Shown in pieces: positions 9,016 through 21,344 of a DNA stretch of 64,000 nt (the first letter of the stretch is position 1; the number at the start of each line of letters is the position of its first letter). The notes beneath the pieces are model-generated. The model saw only the letters and a program-made list of their open reading frames with translations. It was not told where the DNA came from and did not search any database. Source of the DNA: an uncultured Rhodobiaceae bacterium (GTDB lineage Bacteria > Pseudomonadota > Alphaproteobacteria > Rhizobiales > TMED25); the NCBI GenBank assembly GCA_913045225.1, contig CAJWPC010000002.1, positions 62,001 to 126,000 of the forward strand. The letters are read 5' to 3'. A program made the translations under genes and the position numbers.

Positions 9016-9433
9016 TAAATATTTAACATTTTTGGGCATAATACCCTTTCTTTTACTGCTAATACTATCGTTTTATCATTTTGAAACAATAGGTAATATA
9101 TCAGAACTTTTTTATGCATACTCCGCAGTCATCATTTCGTTTATTGCGGGAACCCATTGGGGCATTTGTTTGCACTCGAAAGATGGAAATAAAAGAATTC
9201 TCTTGGAGAGCAATCTGATTACACTTGTTGCTTGGTTCAGTCTATTCTATCTAGGTTTGATAACTGAATTAATTCTGATTGGGTGCTTTTTGTACTTGCT
9301 GCACGTGGAGCACAGACTAAAAAGGAATGGCATTGTTGGTACGGTGTATTTTAGTCAGCGACTGCAGGCAACTTTTGCCGTCATCCTCATTCAAATACTC
9401 TTTTACATAAATCGAAATTTTATTTTCATTTAA
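8993..9433 (+). CDS. DUF3429-like small membrane protein
   Basis: Hydrophobic protein with SAVIISFIAGTHWGICL; overlaps photolyase end and stops on amidase stop. Confidence 0.6.
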   Translation: MSIPMKTDKYLTFLGIIPFLLLLILSFYHFETIGNISELFYAYSAVIISFIAGTHWGICLHSKDGNKRILLESNLITLVAWFSLFYLGLITELILIGCFLYLLHVEHRLKRNGIVGTVYFSQRLQATFAVILIQILFYINRNFIFI

Positions 9434-10869
9434 TCATGATTTAGGGCAGAACAGTCCCATGGATGGTATTTTTCAATTTGAGCTGCTAGGCTTATTAGCG
9501 TTGACTCGTCTCCAATTTTTGCAGCAAAATGCATTCCTAGAGGCATTCCGTCATCAAAAACTTGCATGGGAATTGACATCGCTGGACCTCCAGTTTGATT
9601 GAATATTGCTGTATGAGGAGCGATTTCACGAAATAATAGATTAAGGTGTCGGTCTACATCTGTATGATCTGTATGTACGGTGCCCAATGGAAGCTCTTTA
9701 ATATTTACTGTTGGAGAGAGTATCAAATCATACTTTTCAAAGTAATCTGCCATAATACGTCCTATTTTGTGCATATTATTAATTGCTCTCAAATAATCGA
9801 CCGCTGTATATTTTCGGCCTTCATTCATCCATGCCCAATTTAGCGGCTCGAGGTCACTTTCTTTGAGATTAATACCAAGCATCTTTGCTCTATTTTCAAG
9901 ATTATTTAAAAGATTTATGGCAGGTATAATTTTCCAAGCCTCGAGTATCGATTGAGCGGATAAATCAATATTAATTTCTTCAACATGATGACCAAGAGTC
10001 TCACATAGCTGCGCTGAATTTTTTGTTAATTGAATTATATCTGAGTTTAGTCTATTTCCTTCAAAATCGTGGGTCATGAATCCTATTTTCAAATTTTTCG
10101 GCTCAATATGAATAGAATCAAGAAATTTTCCATTTTGTTTTGGGCTTACGTATGGTTCGCCAGGCATCAACTCACTGGATATATCAAGTAGGGCTGCACT
10201 ATCTCGTACAGACTTAGATAGACAGTGACTAATTGCCATGCCACCAAGAGCCTCGCCAAGATCTGGTCCACTTGATACTCTTCCACGCGATGGCTTTAAT
10301 CCAAAAAGACCGCAAAGGGCAGCAGGGACTCTGATACTCCCACCTCCATCTGTGGCATGGGCGATAGGAACGTATCCTTGACGAATTGAGGCTGCAGAAC
10401 CCCCCGATGAACCACCAGGAGAGTTTGATTTTTTTAGAGGATTCTTTGTAGGGCCAAAAATTTTCGGCTCTGTAGTCAGTGAAAGTGCCAACTCTGGGGT
10501 TTTTGTAAGACCTAGTATAATCAATCCTGCTTTTTTATAGAGTTTGATTAAGTAACTATCATTTTTTGCAATATTATTTTCAAATAGTTTGCTTGATAAT
10601 GTTGTTGGTAAGCCCTCACATGACACATTTAAGTCTTTTAACAAGAATGGTACACCGTGAAAAATATTTTCTGGCTGAGATTTTTCTATTGCTCTAATTG
10701 CATGATCATATGCTTTTGTTGTAATTGCGGATATATCCTCATCGTAAGTTTCAATGATACTTACTGCAGTATCTAAAACCTCTCTCACGTTAACCTCTTT
10801 TTCTCTTATGAGTTTGGCGATGCCAAGTCCGTCATAGGATGAGTATTCAGATTTTTTCATGTGTTTCAC
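9430..10869 (-). CDS. Amidase (amidase signature family)
   Basis: GVPFLLKDLNV, NSPGGSSGGSAASIRQGYVPIAHATDGGGSIRVPAALCGLFGLKPSRGR. Confidence 0.93.
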   Translation of the reverse strand: MKHMKKSEYSSYDGLGIAKLIREKEVNVREVLDTAVSIIETYDEDISAITTKAYDHAIRAIEKSQPENIFHGVPFLLKDLNVSCEGLPTTLSSKLFENNIAKNDSYLIKLYKKAGLIILGLTKTPELALSLTTEPKIFGPTKNPLKKSNSPGGSSGGSAASIRQGYVPIAHATDGGGSIRVPAALCGLFGLKPSRGRVSSGPDLGEALGGMAISHCLSKSVRDSAALLDISSELMPGEPYVSPKQNGKFLDSIHIEPKNLKIGFMTHDFEGNRLNSDIIQLTKNSAQLCETLGHHVEEINIDLSAQSILEAWKIIPAINLLNNLENRAKMLGINLKESDLEPLNWAWMNEGRKYTAVDYLRAINNMHKIGRIMADYFEKYDLILSPTVNIKELPLGTVHTDHTDVDRHLNLLFREIAPHTAIFNQTGGPAMSIPMQVFDDGMPLGMHFAAKIGDESTLISLAAQIEKYHPWDCSALNHD

Positions 10870-12456
10870 CTATTCTAGGGTAAACCCTTCATAAGAATTA
10901 TTCACTATCTTTTCGCATTTTTCGATATATACCGGTAATCCACCAACAAACGGATAGAAAACTCTTTTTTTACCAGTGACATTTGAGCCTAGATACCACG
11001 AGTCACAATAATAACGAAGTGTATCACGAGCGCATTTATCGTTATATTTCCCCCATTCAATTTCAGCATCTCTATTTGCTTCGATGGAATGATAAGACTT
11101 TTTCTTAATATATCTTATACAATCTGCTATCCAGTCAACATGTTGCTCTATTGTGGGAATCATATTTGTCAGGACCGATGGACTGCCAGGACCGGTGATA
11201 GTAAAGAAGTTTGGGAAACCGTTCGTTGCAAGACCAAGATATGTTTCCGGCCCATTTATCCATTTATCTTTCAAGGCTATATTATTTTTGCCGATTATAT
11301 CGATATTATTCAAAGCGCCAGTCATTGCATCAAATCCGGTTGCTAATATTATCATATCTAAGTCTACCTCTCCTATGCCCTCGATATCAATACCCTGTCT
11401 ACGGATCAAATTAATTGGGTTTTTTTTTAAATTAATAAGCTCGACATTTCCTCGATTAAATGTATCGAAGTAATTTGACTCAATAACAAGTCTCTTACAT
11501 CCTACGATTGATCTTGGTTTGAGTGCCTCAGATATTTTTTTATTTTTAACAATTTCATCTATTTTATCCTCAATATATTGTGTGGCTGTTTTATTTGCAT
11601 CGAGATTATGTGTTATGTCACTAAATGCTGCCAAGAATGCTAGCCCTCCAGCAGCCCACCTTCTATCATATTCTTCTTTCAGCTCTTTTTTTGTGACTTC
11701 CAATGCAGATTTTTTATTGTAGGTAGTCAGAAAACCACTGACGAGCTTCTTCGCGTCAGCCCTATTCTTCTTATAGTTTTTCTTAAACTCTTGTACAAAA
11801 TCTGGGTCTAGACTTTTATTGTGTGCTGGAACAGAATAATTCGGCGTTCTCTGTAAAACATATAATTTTTCCGCAGATTTTGCGACTTCGGGTATTAGTT
11901 GCATACCAGACGAACCCGTACCTATTACCGCGATAGTTTTTTTTGTAAAATCTATTTTTTTTTCAGGCCAAAGTGAGCTTTGATAGCACTCGCCCTCAAA
12001 ATCCTCGATACCTGGGATTTTGGCATTCAGAGGTTGGCTAAGGCAGCCAGTTGCCATTATACAAAAGTTCGCATGAAATTTTTCTTCATTTTTACCGGAA
12101 ATTTCCCATAATGAATTCTTATATATAATATTTTTTACATCAAAATTTAATTTGATATGCGCGTGCAACTGAAAGCGATCTGCTACATGATTTAAGTAAT
12201 TTAATATTTCAGGTTGTCGTGCATACTTTTCTGTCCACTCCCACTCTTGTTGCAGTTCTTCGGAGAACTGATATGAGTACTGTAGACTTTCGGTATCACA
12301 TCTTGCTCCAGGATATTTATTCCAAAACCATGTGCCTCCAATGGAAGGAGCTCTTTCAAGGATAAGTGCAGTATAGCCATAGCTGCGCAACTTATGAAGC
12401 ATGTAAAGTCCTGCAAAACCCGCACCAATTACAATAACATCATGAGTTGCATGCAT
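10870..12456 (-). CDS. Baeyer-Villiger-type flavin monooxygenase (cyclohexanone/phenylacetone monooxygenase family)
   Basis: GAGFAGLYMLHKL; GGTWFWNKYPGARCD; variant fingerprint FEGECYQSSLWP; ATGFDAMTG. Confidence 0.88.
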   Translation of the reverse strand: MHATHDVIVIGAGFAGLYMLHKLRSYGYTALILERAPSIGGTWFWNKYPGARCDTESLQYSYQFSEELQQEWEWTEKYARQPEILNYLNHVADRFQLHAHIKLNFDVKNIIYKNSLWEISGKNEEKFHANFCIMATGCLSQPLNAKIPGIEDFEGECYQSSLWPEKKIDFTKKTIAVIGTGSSGMQLIPEVAKSAEKLYVLQRTPNYSVPAHNKSLDPDFVQEFKKNYKKNRADAKKLVSGFLTTYNKKSALEVTKKELKEEYDRRWAAGGLAFLAAFSDITHNLDANKTATQYIEDKIDEIVKNKKISEALKPRSIVGCKRLVIESNYFDTFNRGNVELINLKKNPINLIRRQGIDIEGIGEVDLDMIILATGFDAMTGALNNIDIIGKNNIALKDKWINGPETYLGLATNGFPNFFTITGPGSPSVLTNMIPTIEQHVDWIADCIRYIKKKSYHSIEANRDAEIEWGKYNDKCARDTLRYYCDSWYLGSNVTGKKRVFYPFVGGLPVYIEKCEKIVNNSYEGFTLE

Positions 12457-12467
12457 ACTATGTTCTT

Positions 12468-13667
12468 TTACATTTTTTTATACTTAGCCGCTTCTTCGGA
12501 CCCACTTGTAGCACTACCCTTACTGTAAGAGTGAGCGCCTGTGCCCGCCAGGTTACCATCTTTAACTATTGTGTATTCCTCTCTGATTGGTTTTCCTTCG
12601 AAGAAGCACTCCAGTATTTCTCTGACCCCTGCCGCGTAGCGAGCTTGGGCTGATAGAGAGGTTCCTGATGTATGGGGCGTCATGCCGTGATGAGGCATAG
12701 TTCTCCAGATATGATCATTCGGCGCTGGTTGCGGGAACCAAACGTCTCCTGCGTATCCGCTCAACTGACCAGACTCGAGGGCCTTCGCAATTGCTTCACG
12801 ATCACAGATTTTTCCTCTTGCGGTATTGACGATATAAGCACCTTTCTTCATTTTATTAATAAGTACCTCGTCGAAAAGATTTTCAGTTTCAGGATGGAGT
12901 GGACAATTTATTGTGACGACATCACAAACTGCAACGAGCGACTCAACTGACTCATGAAACGTAAGATTTAATTCTTTTTCCACGCTATCTGGAAGTCTGT
13001 GTCTATCAAAATAATGAAGGTGAACATCAAAAGGTTTCATTTTTCTCAGAGCATCTAGACCAATTCTACCAGCAGCAACAGTTCCAATATGCATCCCTTC
13101 AACGTCGTATGAGCGTTGCACGGCGTCTGCAATATTCCAACCGCCCTCATTAACAATTCTATGCTGGTTATGATAGTCTCTGACAAGCGATAGGATCATC
13201 ATAACAATGTGCTCCGCAACCGATCTAGAGTTACAATATGTGACTTCCACTACATCAATTCCATTATCCATTGCAGCTTGTAAGTCAACGTGATCTGAAC
13301 CGATTCCAGCTGTAACCGCCATCTTAAGATTTTTTGCATTGGCGATTCTTTCTTTTGTTAGGTAGAAAGGCCAAAATGGCTGTGAAATTACAACATCTGC
13401 ATCAACCAGTTCTTTATCTGCTGTGCAATTTTCCCCATCTTTATCAGATGTTACAACTAATTCATGGCCATTTGACTCCAAAAATTTTCTTAATCCTAAT
13501 TCCCCTGACACGCAACCTAATAACTCGCCCGGAGTATAATCAATATTTTTTGGTGTTGGTAGTGCTTGACCGTCAGGATATTTATCTAACTTCGGCAGTT
13601 CTGATAAAGGGTAGTTTTTTGGCATCCCGCCTTTTGGATCATCGTACAATATACATAAGACTTTCAT
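12468..13667 (-). CDS. fdh: NAD-dependent formate dehydrogenase (D-2-hydroxyacid dehydrogenase type)
   Basis: KVLCILYDDPKGGMPKNYP, GQALPTPKNIDYTPGELLGCVSGELGLRKFLESNGH, GYAGDVWFPQPAPNDHIWRTMPHHGMTPHTSGT, closely like Pseudomonas/Candida-type FDH. Confidence 0.96.
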   Translation of the reverse strand: MKVLCILYDDPKGGMPKNYPLSELPKLDKYPDGQALPTPKNIDYTPGELLGCVSGELGLRKFLESNGHELVVTSDKDGENCTADKELVDADVVISQPFWPFYLTKERIANAKNLKMAVTAGIGSDHVDLQAAMDNGIDVVEVTYCNSRSVAEHIVMMILSLVRDYHNQHRIVNEGGWNIADAVQRSYDVEGMHIGTVAAGRIGLDALRKMKPFDVHLHYFDRHRLPDSVEKELNLTFHESVESLVAVCDVVTINCPLHPETENLFDEVLINKMKKGAYIVNTARGKICDREAIAKALESGQLSGYAGDVWFPQPAPNDHIWRTMPHHGMTPHTSGTSLSAQARYAAGVREILECFFEGKPIREEYTIVKDGNLAGTGAHSYSKGSATSGSEEAAKYKKM

Positions 13668-13742: not shown

Positions 13743-14222
13743 CTAAAATAATTTAAAGTCTCTTTTTAAGATCACATTATTTATTAGATAAGCCTGCAAA
13801 ATAATTACAATACAACCGCTTATTAACGGAGATAATAAAAAATCAAAAGAATAGCCACCGAGTATTATCAGTATAGGATTGCCACCTGCCGGTGGGTGTG
13901 TTGAATTAAGTAAGATCATGAAAAAGATACCCAGCCCTACAGCTATTGGAATAACAAATGTGATGCTAAATGATAAATGACTTACAAGAATCGAGTAGCA
14001 CATTAGTCCTGCAATTGATGTGATTATGTGACCAAAAAATACGTTCCGACCTTTTGCAAATGGACTTTCAGGGTAACCCAAGATTAAAACCATTGAGGAT
14101 CCGAATGAGGCAACAAGAAATAGGCCATATTCCGTTTCATAGGACAAATAAGTTAAAGTACCAATTATGAAAATAGAAAAAAAGCCAGCGATTGCCGATT
14201 TTTTTAGAGTGTCCATATGCAT
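13743..14222 (-). CDS. HPP family membrane protein
   Basis: FMILLNSTHPPAGGNPILIILGGYSFDFLLSPLISG with HPP motif; ~4 TM. Confidence 0.85.
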   Translation of the reverse strand: MHMDTLKKSAIAGFFSIFIIGTLTYLSYETEYGLFLVASFGSSMVLILGYPESPFAKGRNVFFGHIITSIAGLMCYSILVSHLSFSITFVIPIAVGLGIFFMILLNSTHPPAGGNPILIILGGYSFDFLLSPLISGCIVIILQAYLINNVILKRDFKLF

Positions 14223-14319: not shown

Positions 14320-14634
14320 ATGATATTTGATCACAGAACGTATACGATACAACCCGGTAAAACCAATGAATATGTTAAAATATTTGAAGAATTTGCCTAT
14401 CCAGTTGCAATGAAACATGGACTAAACCTTGTGGCATACTTCGTGAGTAAAGTTGGAACATTAAATCAGGTTGTTCACATCTGGAGTTACAACGACATGA
14501 TGGAGTTTGAGACCCTAAGAGAACAACGCGATGCTGACCCAGAATGGACACGCTACAGGCAGAAAATAGCTGGGATGATTGTTGCCCAAGAAGATAAGAT
14601 AATGGTTGGGTCAAATTTTTCACCAATTAAGTAA
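14320..14634 (+). CDS. NIPSNAP family protein
   Basis: MIFDHRTYTIQPGKTNEYVKIFEEFAYPVAMKHGLNLVAYFVSKVGTLNQVVHIWSYNDMMEFETLREQRDADPEW. Confidence 0.88.
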   Translation: MIFDHRTYTIQPGKTNEYVKIFEEFAYPVAMKHGLNLVAYFVSKVGTLNQVVHIWSYNDMMEFETLREQRDADPEWTRYRQKIAGMIVAQEDKIMVGSNFSPIK

Positions 14635-14666
14635 AAGAGCTGAGATTGGGATTTAAGGGAACGGCT

Positions 14667-16394
14667 ATGGTTACATCTACTGAAGATATTCTAAAGAAGC
14701 GAACTCAAAATGAAGGCATGATTTCGGGTGGGCATCTTGTCGCCAAAGCGTTAAAAAATGAAGGCGTCGACGCAATTTTTACCCTGTGTGGCGGGCACAT
14801 AATTGATATATATGATGGCTGTATTGAAGAGGGTATAAGAATATTTGATTTTAGGCACGAGCAAACGGCTGCTCACGCTGCTGATGGATATGCCAGACAA
14901 ACAGGGAAGCTGGGCTGTCTTGTGACAACTGCTGGACCTGGATTTACCAATGCAATTACAGGTATCGCAACCGCCTTTAGATCTGAAAGTCCTGTACTCC
15001 ATATTGGGGGGCAGAGTGCTTTATCACAATGGAAAATGGGAGGACTTCAAGAACTACCACATATGGAAATACTAAAACCAATCACGAAGTTTGCATCTAC
15101 AGTTATGTCAACCGAACGAGTTGCGGATATGGTTGCAATGGCCGCAAGGGAATGCTTCAATGGAGCATGTGGACCCTCTTATCTTGAAATACCAAGGGAT
15201 GTTCTAGATAGAGAGGTACCCGTGGAAACAGTAAAACTTCCGATAAAAGATAGATACAGAGCGTCAATAAAATCACAAGCAGACCCCTCAGCAGTAAAAG
15301 GGGTGGTTGAGATTTTAAAAAAATCAGAGAGACCAGCTATCCTTTTTGGGCAACAGGTTTGGCAATCAAGAAGTCATATTGAAGCAAATCAATTTATAGA
15401 GAAATTAAAAATACCAGCTTACACAAATGGTGCAAGCCGAGGAATGATCGGTAAAGGTTGTAAGTACTCATTTGATAGAACGAGGGGAGACGCATTCAAG
15501 CAGGCAGATACCATAATCATTGTTGGTACTCCTTTTGACTTTAGAATGGGCTACGGATCAAGAATATCATCAGATATCAAGATAATTCAAATAGATCAGG
15601 ATTATTCAAATGTGGGAAAAAATAGAGATATTGACATTGGACTTGTTGGTCATCCTGGCTCTGTTCTGTCACAAATTATAGATTTAATGCCAAAATCTTA
15701 CGACGCAAAGATTGAAAAAAGTAGGGATAAATGGATAGAATTATTATCCAGTAAAGAAGATGAAAAGTATGAGAAACTCCTACCAACATTCAAATCAGAT
15801 AGTATGCCAATCCATCCATATAGAGTCGCATATGAAATAAATGAGTTTCTTGATGATAATACAATTTTTATTGGTGATGGTGGTGATGTCGTTACAATAT
15901 CAGCGCAAGCAGTGAGACCAAAAAACCCTGGTCAATGGATGGACCCGGGAGCACTCGGCAGTCTTGGAGTTGGAACAGGTTTCGCGTTTGCGGCAAAACT
16001 TGCTAATCCTGATAAGGAGGTTCTATGCTACTATGGTGATGGTTCTTTTGGAATGACGGCCTTTGATATTGAAACAGCTGATAGGTTTGGAATGCCATTT
16101 ATTGCGGTGATTGGAAATAATTCAGCAATGAATCAAATTAGATATGGACAGCTTGCGAAGTATGGTCAGCAAAAAGGTGATATTGCCAATAAACTTGGTG
16201 ATATGAAGTTCTCAGATTTTCCAAAAATGTGGGGTGCGCATGGAATTGAAGTTCATGAGCCAAATGAGATTAGTTCTGCTCTGAATGAAGCAAGAAAGCT
16301 TATAAATAAAACTAAGAAATCAGTCGTGGTCAATATATGGGTTGATCCCAACGAGTATGCACCTGGCACCAAAGCCCAGACAATGTATAAGTAG
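14667..16394 (+). CDS. Thiamine-pyrophosphate enzyme, ALS/oxalyl-CoA decarboxylase/2-hydroxyacyl-CoA lyase superfamily
   Basis: [47 protein letters not shown] (catalytic Glu), [33 protein letters not shown] motif; ATG 14667 preferred over TTG 14646. Confidence 0.9.
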
Positions 16395-16404
16395 GAAATA
16401 TCAA

Positions 16405-17655
16405 ATGGAAGCATTAAAAGGTATAACAATACTTGATTTTACACATGTTCAATCAGGTCCAACATGCACCCAACTCTTGGCTTGGTTTGGTGCAAACGTT
16501 ATTAAAATTGAACGACCAGGCGGTGGTGATATCACCCGCTCGCAACTACGTGATAAAGATGGTGTGGACTCATTATATTTTACAATGCTAAACCATAACA
16601 AGAAATCTATTACTTTAAATGTTAAAGATGACAAAGGTAAAAAAATATTAGATGATTTGATATTGAAATGTGACGTATTTGTTGAAAATTTCGCTCCCGG
16701 AACGCTGGATAGGATGGGTTACGGTTGGGAACACATACATAAATTAAATCCAAGAATTATTCTAGCCTCAGTAAAAGGTTTTGGGCCTGGGCCATATGAA
16801 GATTGTAAGGTCTATGAAAATATTGCCCAATGCGCTGGGGGTGCTGCCTCGACCACAGGCTTTCTTGATGGTCCACCCCTTGTCACAGGAGCGCAAATAG
16901 GGGACTCGGGTACTGGCCTGCACCTCGCATTGGGAATTGTAACAGCTCTGTTCCATCGAGAGAAATCAGGTCTTGGACAGAAGGTTGACGTCGCGATGCA
17001 AGATGGGGTCGTGAATTTATGTCGAGTAAAATTAAGAGATTATCAGAGGTTATCCAGCGGACCACTATCTGAATATAGTCAATTTGGTCAGGGGATTCCA
17101 TTCACAGATACAACTCCCCGCGCAGGAAATGATTCTGGTGGAGGGCAGCCTGGTTGGATTCTTAAATGCAAGGGCTGGGAGGATGATGCTGACTCTTATG
17201 TCTACTTTATTACACAAGCGCCTGTATGGGATAAAATTTGTAATGTTATTGGTAGAGATGATTGGATCAGTGATCCCGAATACTCAACTCCTAAAGCAAG
17301 ATTAGATAAATTATCACATATATTTGAGACAATAGAAAAATGGACAATGACTAAGACAAAATTTGAAGTCGTATCAATATGTGACCCACTTGGTATTCCT
17401 TGTGGGCCAATATTATCAATGAAAGAGATAGCTCATGATGAGTCCTTGAGGCGAACTGGAACCGTTGTTGAAGTTGACCATCCTGAAAGAGGTAAATATA
17501 TCACTGTCGGTTGTCCAATTAAATTATCAAACTCGGAAGCGGATGTCCAAAGGTCGCCTTTATTAGGGGAGCATAACGAAGAAATTTTAAAAGATTTTCT
17601 TAATTACAGCGACGAGGAGCTGGTTGAAATCAATAAAACAGATGCGATGAAGTAG
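16405..17655 (+). CDS. frc: Formyl-CoA:oxalate CoA-transferase (class III CoA-transferase)
   Basis: [76 protein letters not shown] closely resemble Oxalobacter Frc from memory; ATG at 16405 just after preceding stop. Confidence 0.92.
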
Positions 17656-17664
17656 AGTTTAATA

Positions 17665-18582
17665 ATGCGAATTGTAGTACACGGGCAGCAGGCATTCGGA
17701 AGTGCAGTATTGGAGAGACTTTTATCAAATAATGAGGATATTGTATCGGTTTGTGCCGCTCCCAATAAAAAAAATGGAAATCTTGATCCGTTAGTTGAAG
17801 CTGCAAATGCAAATAATATTCCAGTTCATCAACCAACTAGCTGGAAAACAGACGAAGCATATGAATTAATGGAATCTTTTGATGCAGATTTATGCGTTAT
17901 GGCATACGTGACACTGATTGTACCCAGTGCAATTCTAAACTTACCTCGGAAGGGGTCTATTCAATATCACCCATCATTGCTACCCATGCACCGAGGTCCC
18001 TCGTCAATAAATTGGCCTATATCAATAGGATCAAAAAAAACAGGGATAACTATATTTTGGCCTGATGATGGCCTCGATACTGGACCTATACTATTACAAA
18101 AAGAATGCACCATTGATGAAAATGAAACTCTTGGCGCTCTGTATTTTAATAAATTATTTCCCATGGGTGTTGATTCAATTGAGGAGTCAATTCAATTAAT
18201 TAAGAGTGGTAATGCACCAAAGATTGATCAAAATCTTGATGAAGGCTCATATGAAAGTTGGTTTGGCAGAGAGCAATCAAAAATTGACTGGACAAAGCAC
18301 GCAAATGAAATTCACGCACTCATTCGGGCGAGTGACCCTCAGCCGGGTGCATGGACTCTACATAATGGTAATGAAATTATGTTATATGATGTAAAAATAA
18401 TTAATGACCATCAGAACATACCCGGTTATATCTGTAATATTGATGAAGAAGTTGGCATACAAATAAGTACAGGGCATGGTACAATATCCATTCAAAAATT
18501 TCGACATAATGGAAAAAAAATGAGTGCAATGGAATACGCAGAAATAAGTAATATGAAGTCTGGTGATATTCTAGGAAATTAA
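17665..18582 (+). CDS. Stand-alone formyltransferase/10-formyl-THF hydrolase-like protein (ALDH1L1 N-terminal domain type)
   Basis: IVVHGQQAFGSAVLERLL, GSIQYHPSLLPMHRGPSSINWPI, IFWPDDGLDTGPILLQKECTI, SKIDWTKHANEIHALIRASDPQPGAWT. Confidence 0.87.
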   Translation: MRIVVHGQQAFGSAVLERLLSNNEDIVSVCAAPNKKNGNLDPLVEAANANNIPVHQPTSWKTDEAYELMESFDADLCVMAYVTLIVPSAILNLPRKGSIQYHPSLLPMHRGPSSINWPISIGSKKTGITIFWPDDGLDTGPILLQKECTIDENETLGALYFNKLFPMGVDSIEESIQLIKSGNAPKIDQNLDEGSYESWFGREQSKIDWTKHANEIHALIRASDPQPGAWTLHNGNEIMLYDVKIINDHQNIPGYICNIDEEVGIQISTGHGTISIQKFRHNGKKMSAMEYAEISNMKSGDILGN

Positions 18583-18615
18583 AAATAACTATAAATATAA
18601 AAAGAGAATACAATA

Positions 18616-20292
18616 ATGACAACGGATATAGAAATTGCTAGGGCCGCCAAACCGCAAAATATTAATAAAATAGCAGAAAAGCTTGGATTAGGTGAAAATG
18701 ATATTGAAACATATGGTGGGCTAAAGGCAAAAGTCTCATTTGACTACATTAATAATATAAAAAGTAAGAAAAACGGGAAACTGATACTAGTAACTGCTAT
18801 CACGCCAACACCTGCTGGAGAAGGAAAAACAACAACAACAGTTGGGTTGGGTGATGGTCTCAATAAGCTTGGAAAAAAAGCAACAATTTGTATTCGTGAA
18901 CCATCACTTGGGCCATGCTTTGGAATGAAAGGCGGCGCAGCAGGAGGTGGCTATTCACAAGTTATCCCTATGGAAGATATAAACCTTCACTTTACAGGAG
19001 ACTTTCACGCCATTGGAATTGCGCATAATCTGCTATGCGCAATGGTCGATAATCATATCTATTGGGGTAACGCACTCAACATCGATACTCGAAGAATAGC
19101 AATCCGTAGAGCGCTTGATATGAATGAGAGGTCGCTCAGAGAAATAGTTACCTCGCTTGGTGGTATCTCTAATGGCTACCCGAGATCTGATGGATTTGAT
19201 ATTACAGTTGCGTCCGAGGTAATGGCAATATTTTGTCTTTCAAGTAGCTTAGAAGAGCTCACAGAAAGGCTCGGTAAGATTGTTGTTGCATACACAAGAG
19301 ACAAGGAACCGATAACAGCAGAGCAAATTGGTGCAAATAAAGCAATGGCTGTATTATTGAAAGATGCTCTAAAGCCTAACCTTGTGCAGACTCTGGAAAA
19401 CAATCCAGCATTTGTACATGGAGGGCCTTTTGCAAATATAGCGCATGGGTGTAATTCAATCATATCGACAAACTTAGCTTTAAAATTGTCTGATTTTGTG
19501 ATTACGGAAGCCGGTTTTGGTGCAGACTTAGGTGCTGAAAAGTTTTTTGATATTAAGTGTCGCTATCTTGATGAAAAACCGTCCGTTGCAGTTGTAGTTG
19601 CGACAGTGAGAGCCCTTAAAATGCATGGGGGTGTTAAGATCGATCAATTGAAAGAAGAGAATAATGACGCAGTAAATGCAGGTTCTGCGAACTTGATAAG
19701 ACATTTGGAAAATATATCAAAATTTGGTGTACCGACCGTCGTATGCATAAATAGATTTATTAATGATACTGACAGTGAGATAAGCACTCTAATTGAGGCA
19801 ATAGATAAAAGTGGCATTAAGAGTAAAGTGATTTTATCGAATCATTGGGCTGAGGGCGGAAGTGGAATTACTGACCTTGCAAAAGAAGTAATAGATTTGT
19901 GTGGAAATGCTGATCAAGATTTTAAACATTTGTATGAGCTCGAGGAAGAAATTGAGTATAAAATAACTAAAATTGCAAAGGAAATCTATCGTGCTAAGGA
20001 CGTTATTTTAAGTAAAAAAGTTAAAACTCAAATTAGTGATTTGGAAAAGAATGGTTTTAGTAAACTACCAATCTGCATGGCGAAGACGCAATATTCATTT
20101 TCAACAGATCCAACTTTGAAAAATGCGCCTGTAGATCATGATATTGAAATAAGAGAGCTCAGGTTATCAGCCGGAGCAGGGTTTATCGTTGCGATATCTG
20201 GTGATATCATGACAATGCCCGGATTGCCGCGAAAGCCAGCTGCAGAGAATATTTATTTAGATAGGGGCGGTAATATTGAAGGCCTGTTCTAG
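18616..20292 (+). CDS. fhs: Formate--tetrahydrofolate ligase
   Basis: [72 protein letters not shown]. Confidence 0.98.
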
Positions 20293-20309
20293 ATGGTAGG
20301 ATAAAAAAT

Positions 20310-21344
20310 ATGAAAAAAATATGTGTATTAGGTGGAGGGGCTATTGGCTCTTGTGTTTCGGCGTCGCTTACTGATGCTGGATTAGATGTTATATTAGTTG
20401 ATCAATGGGCAGATCATATTAATAAAATTAGACGAGATGGCCTCAGTGTAACTACCAAAGAGGGGGAAAAAAATACAAAGGTCTCTGCATATCATATGAG
20501 TGATTTAGCAAAGTTACAGCCCCAATTTGATCTTATATTAATGGCTGTTAAGGCCTATGACACTCAATGGGTGTCAAAATTTGCTTCAGTATATTTAAAA
20601 GATAAAGGTGTTTTTGTTGGCTTACAAAATGCATATAACGACGATTTAAATGCGGAGATGGTCGGTAGAGAAAATGTGATTGGTGCTGTCGTTGAGTTAA
20701 GTTGTGAAATATTCAACCCTGGATTTGTGCAGAGAAATACAGTTCCATCTGGGACTTGGTTTGCTGTTGGAGAATTAAACGGTGAGATTACTTCAAGGCT
20801 AAAAGAGGTTCAGAAGATCATGTTAAATGTTGGAAAATGTGATTTAACTGACAATATTTATGGGGCTAAATGGACAAAGTTAATTGCGAATTCAATGACA
20901 TGCCCATTTTCATCCTTGAATTTGAAAAATTGGGAAGCGGTAAAGTTGCCTGGTATGTTTGATTTTTCTGTTGGGGTTGGAAGAGAGTCCTTCAAAGTTG
21001 GAAAAGCTCTGGGTTATATGATTGAACCACTTTTTGGTCTGACAAACGAGGATATTGGGAATGCTGGTGAAGATGCAGCTGAATTAGTTATGAAAAAAAT
21101 GGTTAAGGATGTTGGCCCTAATGCAAGGACACACGCAGCTCAAGATCATATCAAGGGACGGCGAAGTGAGATTGAGTTTATCAACGGTAGAGTTTCAAAA
21201 GAGGGGCGCAAACTTGGGATTTCAACACCATATAATGATGCTGTTGTGGAAATAGCGAAAATGACACACAGTGGTAAGATAGATTTGGATCCATCAAACA
21301 TAAATATTTTGTTCAAAAAATTAGAAGAACTTATTAGAGACTAG
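20310..21344 (+). CDS. PanE/ketopantoate reductase family protein
   Basis: KKICVLGGGAIGSCVSASLTDAGLDVILVDQWADHINKIRRDGL; GAKWTKLIANSMTCPFSSL; RTHAAQDHIKGRRSEIEFINGRV. Confidence 0.9.
   Translation: MKKICVLGGGAIGSCVSASLTDAGLDVILVDQWADHINKIRRDGLSVTTKEGEKNTKVSAYHMSDLAKLQPQFDLILMAVKAYDTQWVSKFASVYLKDKGVFVGLQNAYNDDLNAEMVGRENVIGAVVELSCEIFNPGFVQRNTVPSGTWFAVGELNGEITSRLKEVQKIMLNVGKCDLTDNIYGAKWTKLIANSMTCPFSSLNLKNWEAVKLPGMFDFSVGVGRESFKVGKALGYMIEPLFGLTNEDIGNAGEDAAELVMKKMVKDVGPNARTHAAQDHIKGRRSEIEFINGRVSKEGRKLGISTPYNDAVVEIAKMTHSGKIDLDPSNINILFKKLEELIRD

Follow-up and report, generated by a model that had tools for sequence, protein, structure and literature searches.

A PanE-family protein closing a Rhodobiaceae oxalate operon groups with NADH-type dehydrogenases, outside the PanE2/ApbA2 oxalyl-CoA reductases

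PanE2 of Methylobacterium extorquens is a member of the PanE family that acts in oxalate metabolism, and the primary paper on it is reportedly that of Schneider in 2012. PanE2 has been characterised and was used in a coupled assay as an oxalyl-CoA reductase (PMC8411744). Its counterpart in C. necator, ApbA2, is 51% identical to PanE2 and is encoded close to frc-oxc, and deletion of apbA2 impairs growth of C. necator on oxalate (PMC7486775). The first-pass annotation of the locus studied here, which named PanE2 as an oxalyl-CoA reductase, was correct on this point (PMC8411744, PMC7486775). A different activity in the PanE family is that of the E. faecium D-mandelate dehydrogenase, which runs with NADH (PMC12350541).

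The window analysed here is a stretch of 64,000 nucleotides from an uncultured Rhodobiaceae bacterium, whose genome (1.34 Mb, 99% complete) was covered by targeted searches and sequence stretches. It holds an operon that resembles the canonical oxc-frc operon and the oxc-frc-fmt-fhs operon of Paracoccaceae bacterium La 6, in that frc, a formyltransferase-like gene and fhs follow each other in the same order. In contrast to these systems, however, a different thiamine diphosphate (ThDP) family stands in place of oxc, and the operon ends in a PanE-like gene.

The operon and its last gene

The run at 14320-21344 is opened by a NIPSNAP-domain protein (14320-14634, + strand; PF07978), which is followed by a ThDP enzyme (14646-16394, +), frc, encoding formyl-CoA:oxalate CoA-transferase (16408-17655, +), a formyltransferase-like gene (17665-18582, +), fhs, encoding formate--tetrahydrofolate ligase (18616-20292, +; NF010030, 892 bits against a cut-off of 652), and finally the PanE-like gene (20310-21344, +). 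Intergenic gaps are 11, 13, 9, 33 and 17 bp in that order, the last of these separating fhs from the start of the PanE-like gene. With 694 bits on TIGR03253 (cut-off 504), the encoded Frc is by its profile score bona fide, and the run is an oxalate or formyl-CoA operon. The linkage to frc that had been pointed out for the PanE-like gene is genuine, and PanE-family genes are linked to frc or oxc elsewhere too.

An NAD-dependent formate dehydrogenase (12468-13667, - strand; NF005750, 676 bits, cut-off 329) is the divergent neighbour of the operon, with an HPP-family membrane protein between the two (13743-14222, -; PF04982). It is part of a tight run on the same strand (9430-13667) with genes for a Baeyer-Villiger-type flavin monooxygenase and an amidase.

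The formyltransferase-like protein, whose kind recurs beside frc, is nearest to the hydrolase domain of 10-formyl-tetrahydrofolate (THF) dehydrogenase (205 bits for PDB 4qpd, while no methionyl-tRNA formyltransferase scores above 150), and thus represents a stand-alone relative of that domain inside a formyl-CoA operon. In ALDH1L1, the hydrolase domain passes the formyl group to a phosphopantetheine arm, and a role as formyl-CoA:THF formyltransferase is therefore conceivable for the protein at 17665-18582.

The open reading frame at 20310-21344 starts with ATG, encodes 344 residues and is a real gene that ends the oxalate operon. In agreement with its earlier assignment to the ketopantoate-reductase family, the protein contains the Pfam domains ApbA (83.7 bits, cut-off 22.2) and ApbA_C (60.3 bits, cut-off 22.7), and its AlphaFold2 model has the PanE fold (pLDDT 89.6). 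Residues K190, E287, N107 and N194, which correspond to the catalytic Lys176, Glu256, Asn98 and Asn180 of PanE, are kept in 13/13 orthologues of the window type, and the enzyme is predicted to be a catalytically competent PanE-fold oxidoreductase.

Conservation was assessed in 14 genomes of the bacterial family, the window's own included. An orthologue of the window type (77-99% identity) was present in 13 of them, the sole exception being a genome (G007) that is 75% complete. In all five operons examined, those of the window and of four relatives from two genera, the panE-like gene lay inside the oxalate operon and was always last; its conservation (77-82%) equalled that of frc and of the ThDP enzyme and was no lower than that of fhs. 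The occurrence of orthologues in 13/14 genomes, together with the operon shared by the window and four relatives, shows that its presence there is more than chance. Formate dehydrogenase genes are inserted ahead of panE in some relatives, and panE nevertheless stays in the operon. In the sister genus (L052, 9877-14299; L053, 10372-14794) two such genes, for an alpha subunit (over cut-off) and a NuoF-like subunit, lie between fhs and panE; the genus of the window has the divergent NAD-dependent formate dehydrogenase in place of this pair.

Cofactor signature, branch and probable activity

Following strand beta-2, the window orthologues carry the motif D31-Q32-W33 (13/13). Asp or Glu occupies this cofactor site in 38 of the 39 other members of the branch, most of the branch carries D-Q-W, and D-x-W is also seen in the solved structures 3wfi, 8wl1 and 2ew2. 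A Foldseek search with the model returned the D-mandelate dehydrogenase 3wfi as the top structural match, followed closely by the NADH-bound structures 5x20 and 3wfj, and PDB entries 8wl4 and 2ew2, both D-x-W carriers, grouped with the window protein at an SH-aLRT value of 99. By sequence, the protein is a member of the PanE-family branch that uses NADH and contains D-mandelate dehydrogenase.

While the D-x-W motif, the nearest structure and the grouping at 99 are common to the window branch and the PanE-family D-2-hydroxyacid dehydrogenases (D-mandelate dehydrogenase of E. faecium, 3wfi; L. brevis, 8wl1), the latter are only ~22-23% identical to the window protein. The window clade further differs from them in its own C198, H275 and N207 and in an additional stretch within the C-terminal domain. 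Its substrate-site residues, C198, A272, H275 and N207, are fixed, which suggests a specialised substrate.

Our preferred reading, to which we give a tentative probability of about 0.45, is that the protein is an NAD(H)-dependent small 2-hydroxyacid dehydrogenase; the gene product was scored as a PanE-family NAD(H)-type reductase/dehydrogenase from its reading frame, Pfam domains, family scores, tree, AlphaFold2 model and residues. In this bacterial family, a D-mandelate-dehydrogenase-like PanE enzyme would have been added as the last member of the oxalate operon, where it would most likely interconvert a small 2-oxo acid and the 2-hydroxy acid with NAD(H). The sequence itself shows the fold, the catalytic Lys/Glu/Asn, the NADH signature, the clade and the conserved operon; cofactor use, substrate and direction we infer. 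Glyoxylate and glycolate would be the likeliest substrate pair in an oxalate setting, a guess from the neighbourhood that is weakened by the failure to find glyoxylate sinks (see below). The distinct substrate-site residues mean that the activity may be a different one, and the use of NADH is read from a single motif. Furthermore, 3hwr, an Arg-type PanE, was the best match by sequence and the second by structure.

Oxalyl-CoA reduction and other alternatives

The first-pass annotation had proposed the protein as a candidate oxalyl-CoA reductase. This was addressed with a reference set of 94 PanE2/ApbA2-type proteins, in which PanE2 is represented by Methylobacterium orthologues from oxlT-panE-acyl-CoA-ligase clusters, M. 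extorquens itself not being in the set. Many of the 94 adjoin oxlT, an acyl-CoA ligase, oxc/frc or a ThDP-frc pair. These reductases (oxalyl-CoA reductase, CoA-acylating glyoxylate dehydrogenase) share with the window protein the PanE fold, the catalytic Lys/Glu/Asn and the oxalate-gene neighbourhood. In contrast, pairwise identity to three of them was 25-26%, and on NF005089, the model that holds ApbA2, the window protein scored 117 bits against a cut-off of 223, compared with 534 and 474 bits for the ApbA2 proteins of C. metallidurans and Phyllobacterium.

Phylogenetic analysis, the check proposed with the original claim, placed 33 PanE2/ApbA2 rows in one clade (support 99) and the window protein in the other branch (98). 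Forcing it together with the reductases gave AU p = 0.083 in the first tree, where the E. coli PanE outgroup formed a long branch, and p = 0.006 in a rerun from which E. coli PanE and a paralogue (L050) were left out and to which three PDB chains were added. The position of E. coli R31, at the NADPH 2'-phosphate site, is Arg in 93/94 PanE2/ApbA2-type proteins, whereas the window orthologues have Gln following Asp at this site (13/13) and no Arg. After Asn98 (E. coli numbering) the window protein has a segment of 12 residues, compared with 33-37 in PanE2/ApbA2, and thus lacks their typical insertion of 21-25 residues. The substrate residues His241, Ser244 and Asn184, each present in 94/94 of the reference proteins, are Ala, His and Cys in the window protein. 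Outside the clade and without its features, the protein leaves the linkage to frc to carry the reductase claim: the linkage stands, the analogy to PanE2 by homology is not supported, and the call is weak.

Given its position outside the PanE2/ApbA2 clade, the window protein could only have gained such a role independently. In this case a member of another PanE branch would have acquired NADH-linked reduction of oxalyl-CoA to glyoxylate, or the reverse, an acylating oxidation of glyoxylate that feeds the operon. We consider this doubtful but possible. The constant place of the gene at the end of the oxalate operon, its conservation alongside frc and the ThDP enzyme and the fixed substrate site would all be consistent with it, and the slot is otherwise empty, no ApbA2-type protein having been found in any of the 14 family genomes. 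In addition, one gammaproteobacterial metagenome-assembled genome (MAG) has a ThDP-frc-formyltransferase operon in which this position is held by a true ApbA2. Against it count the position outside the clade, the score under the family cut-off, the missing insertion and H/S/N residues and the failure to find the usual glyoxylate sinks; moreover, among the genomes examined outside the family, none had a window-type PanE beside a ThDP-frc pair.

The gammaproteobacterial locus (L216, 1161-6918), in which GntR, ThDP, frc, formyltransferase-like and ApbA2 genes stand in a row, is, among operons with a true ApbA2, the one most like that of the window. A ThDP-frc-formyltransferase run with sucCD-like genes and a reductase of true ApbA2 type nearby also occurs in a different alphaproteobacterial family, in three genomes of 1.4 Mb each (L117, L118 and L119).

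It appears unlikely that the enzyme supplies the operon with the product of some other reaction, the reduction or oxidation of, say, a semialdehyde or a bulkier 2-oxo acid. Members of the branch do occur in varied catabolic clusters, with maleylacetate reductase and dioxygenase, mandelate-racemase-type or amidohydrolase genes, and the branch is multi-copy in several genomes. However, those clusters show no linkage to oxalate genes, and nothing seen in the present operon points directly to such a substrate.

An ordinary ketopantoate reductase, present in the operon by happenstance, is in our view improbable. In its favour, E. coli PanE shares its fold, domains and catalytic residues with the window protein, and the genome has a panB-panC pair, on a different contig (G000:C4:168218), with no panE next to it. 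No pantothenate genes were found near 20310-21344, as stated previously, and the protein is not linked to panB-panC. Three further full-length PanE-like proteins occur in the genome (43-45% identity for two of them, 27% for the third), and hence the window protein is not its only PanE, so that the ground on which the original claim was to be refuted does not apply. On TIGR00745 (cut-off 141.35) it scored 128.4 bits, while two of these paralogues pass (142.1 and 142.8). Its cofactor signature also differs from that of E. coli PanE, whose substrate residues Asn184, Asn241 and Ser244 are replaced by Cys, Ala and His in the window clade.

Finally, despite the shared superfamily and type of neighbourhood, orthology to M. 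extorquens PanE2 or C. necator ApbA2 is hardly credible on the identity, clade, family score, insertion and residues given above; both the family score and the tree lacking E. coli PanE reject it.

The ThDP enzyme and the fate of oxalate carbon

The ThDP enzyme at 14646-16394 scored 237 bits on TIGR03254 (cut-off 739.4), and the residues Tyr134 and Glu135 of oxalyl-CoA decarboxylase (OXC) are Leu and Gln; this score and the missing residues rule out a canonical OXC. Its best solved match was 7pt3, a 2-hydroxyacyl-CoA lyase. Relatives at 55-69% identity had frc adjacent in 8/8 plasmid records that carry such a relative, and in 15 other alphaproteobacterial genomes frc was directly adjacent in 14 and ~5 kb away in one; some clusters additionally carry a transporter gene (oxlT or OFA), genes resembling succinyl-CoA ligase and an ADP-forming CoA ligase. 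No OXC over the cut-off was found in the 20 genomes bearing this unnamed family (0/20), and in C. metallidurans a member lies beside frc where C. campinensis has a true oxc. Because the family adjoins frc almost everywhere, in genomes devoid of OXC, the profile scores, neighbourhoods and residues together suggest that the enzyme is probably an alternative oxalyl-CoA decarboxylase. The linkage to oxlT and frc and the absence of a canonical OXC place a lyase role second. A term-based literature search found no paper describing this frc-linked family.

In the proposed pathway, Frc would convert oxalate to oxalyl-CoA, and decarboxylation by the ThDP enzyme would give formyl-CoA, the source of formate and 10-formyl-THF through Frc and the folate enzymes. 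Formate dehydrogenase would oxidise the remaining formate. The first-pass annotation had envisaged a division of oxalyl-CoA between oxidation and assimilation through glyoxylate. The searches for glyoxylate sinks do not favour this: malate synthase was not found in the genome by targeted search, no scanned ThDP protein was over the cut-off for glyoxylate carboligase (Gcl), and a search for class-V aminotransferases found no serine/alanine-glyoxylate enzyme, the strong class-V hits being only cysteine desulfurases. With formate dehydrogenase and fhs present and these sinks not found, the gene set agrees better with carbon dividing at formyl-CoA/formate, one part going to formate dehydrogenase and the other to fhs, which is more likely than a division at oxalyl-CoA.

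Taken further, the operon could be a compact route from oxalate to C1 units assembled from non-canonical components, combining a second, non-orthologous ThDP oxalyl-CoA decarboxylase, a formyltransferase that may pass the formyl group of formyl-CoA directly to tetrahydrofolate, and an NADH-type PanE enzyme in which oxalyl-CoA reduction, or acylating oxidation of glyoxylate, had evolved independently; as a whole we hold this to be quite unlikely. A PanE-family gene close to frc readily attracts the label oxalyl-CoA reductase; the family score, Arg versus Asp at the cofactor site, the insertion and the substrate residues distinguish genuine PanE2/ApbA2 proteins from such look-alikes. Should the window enzyme act on oxalyl-CoA after all, it would represent a case of convergence, an oxalyl-CoA reductase linked to NADH. 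The unnamed ThDP family, for its part, would explain how oxalate could be degraded by many bacteria that bear frc and have no oxc.
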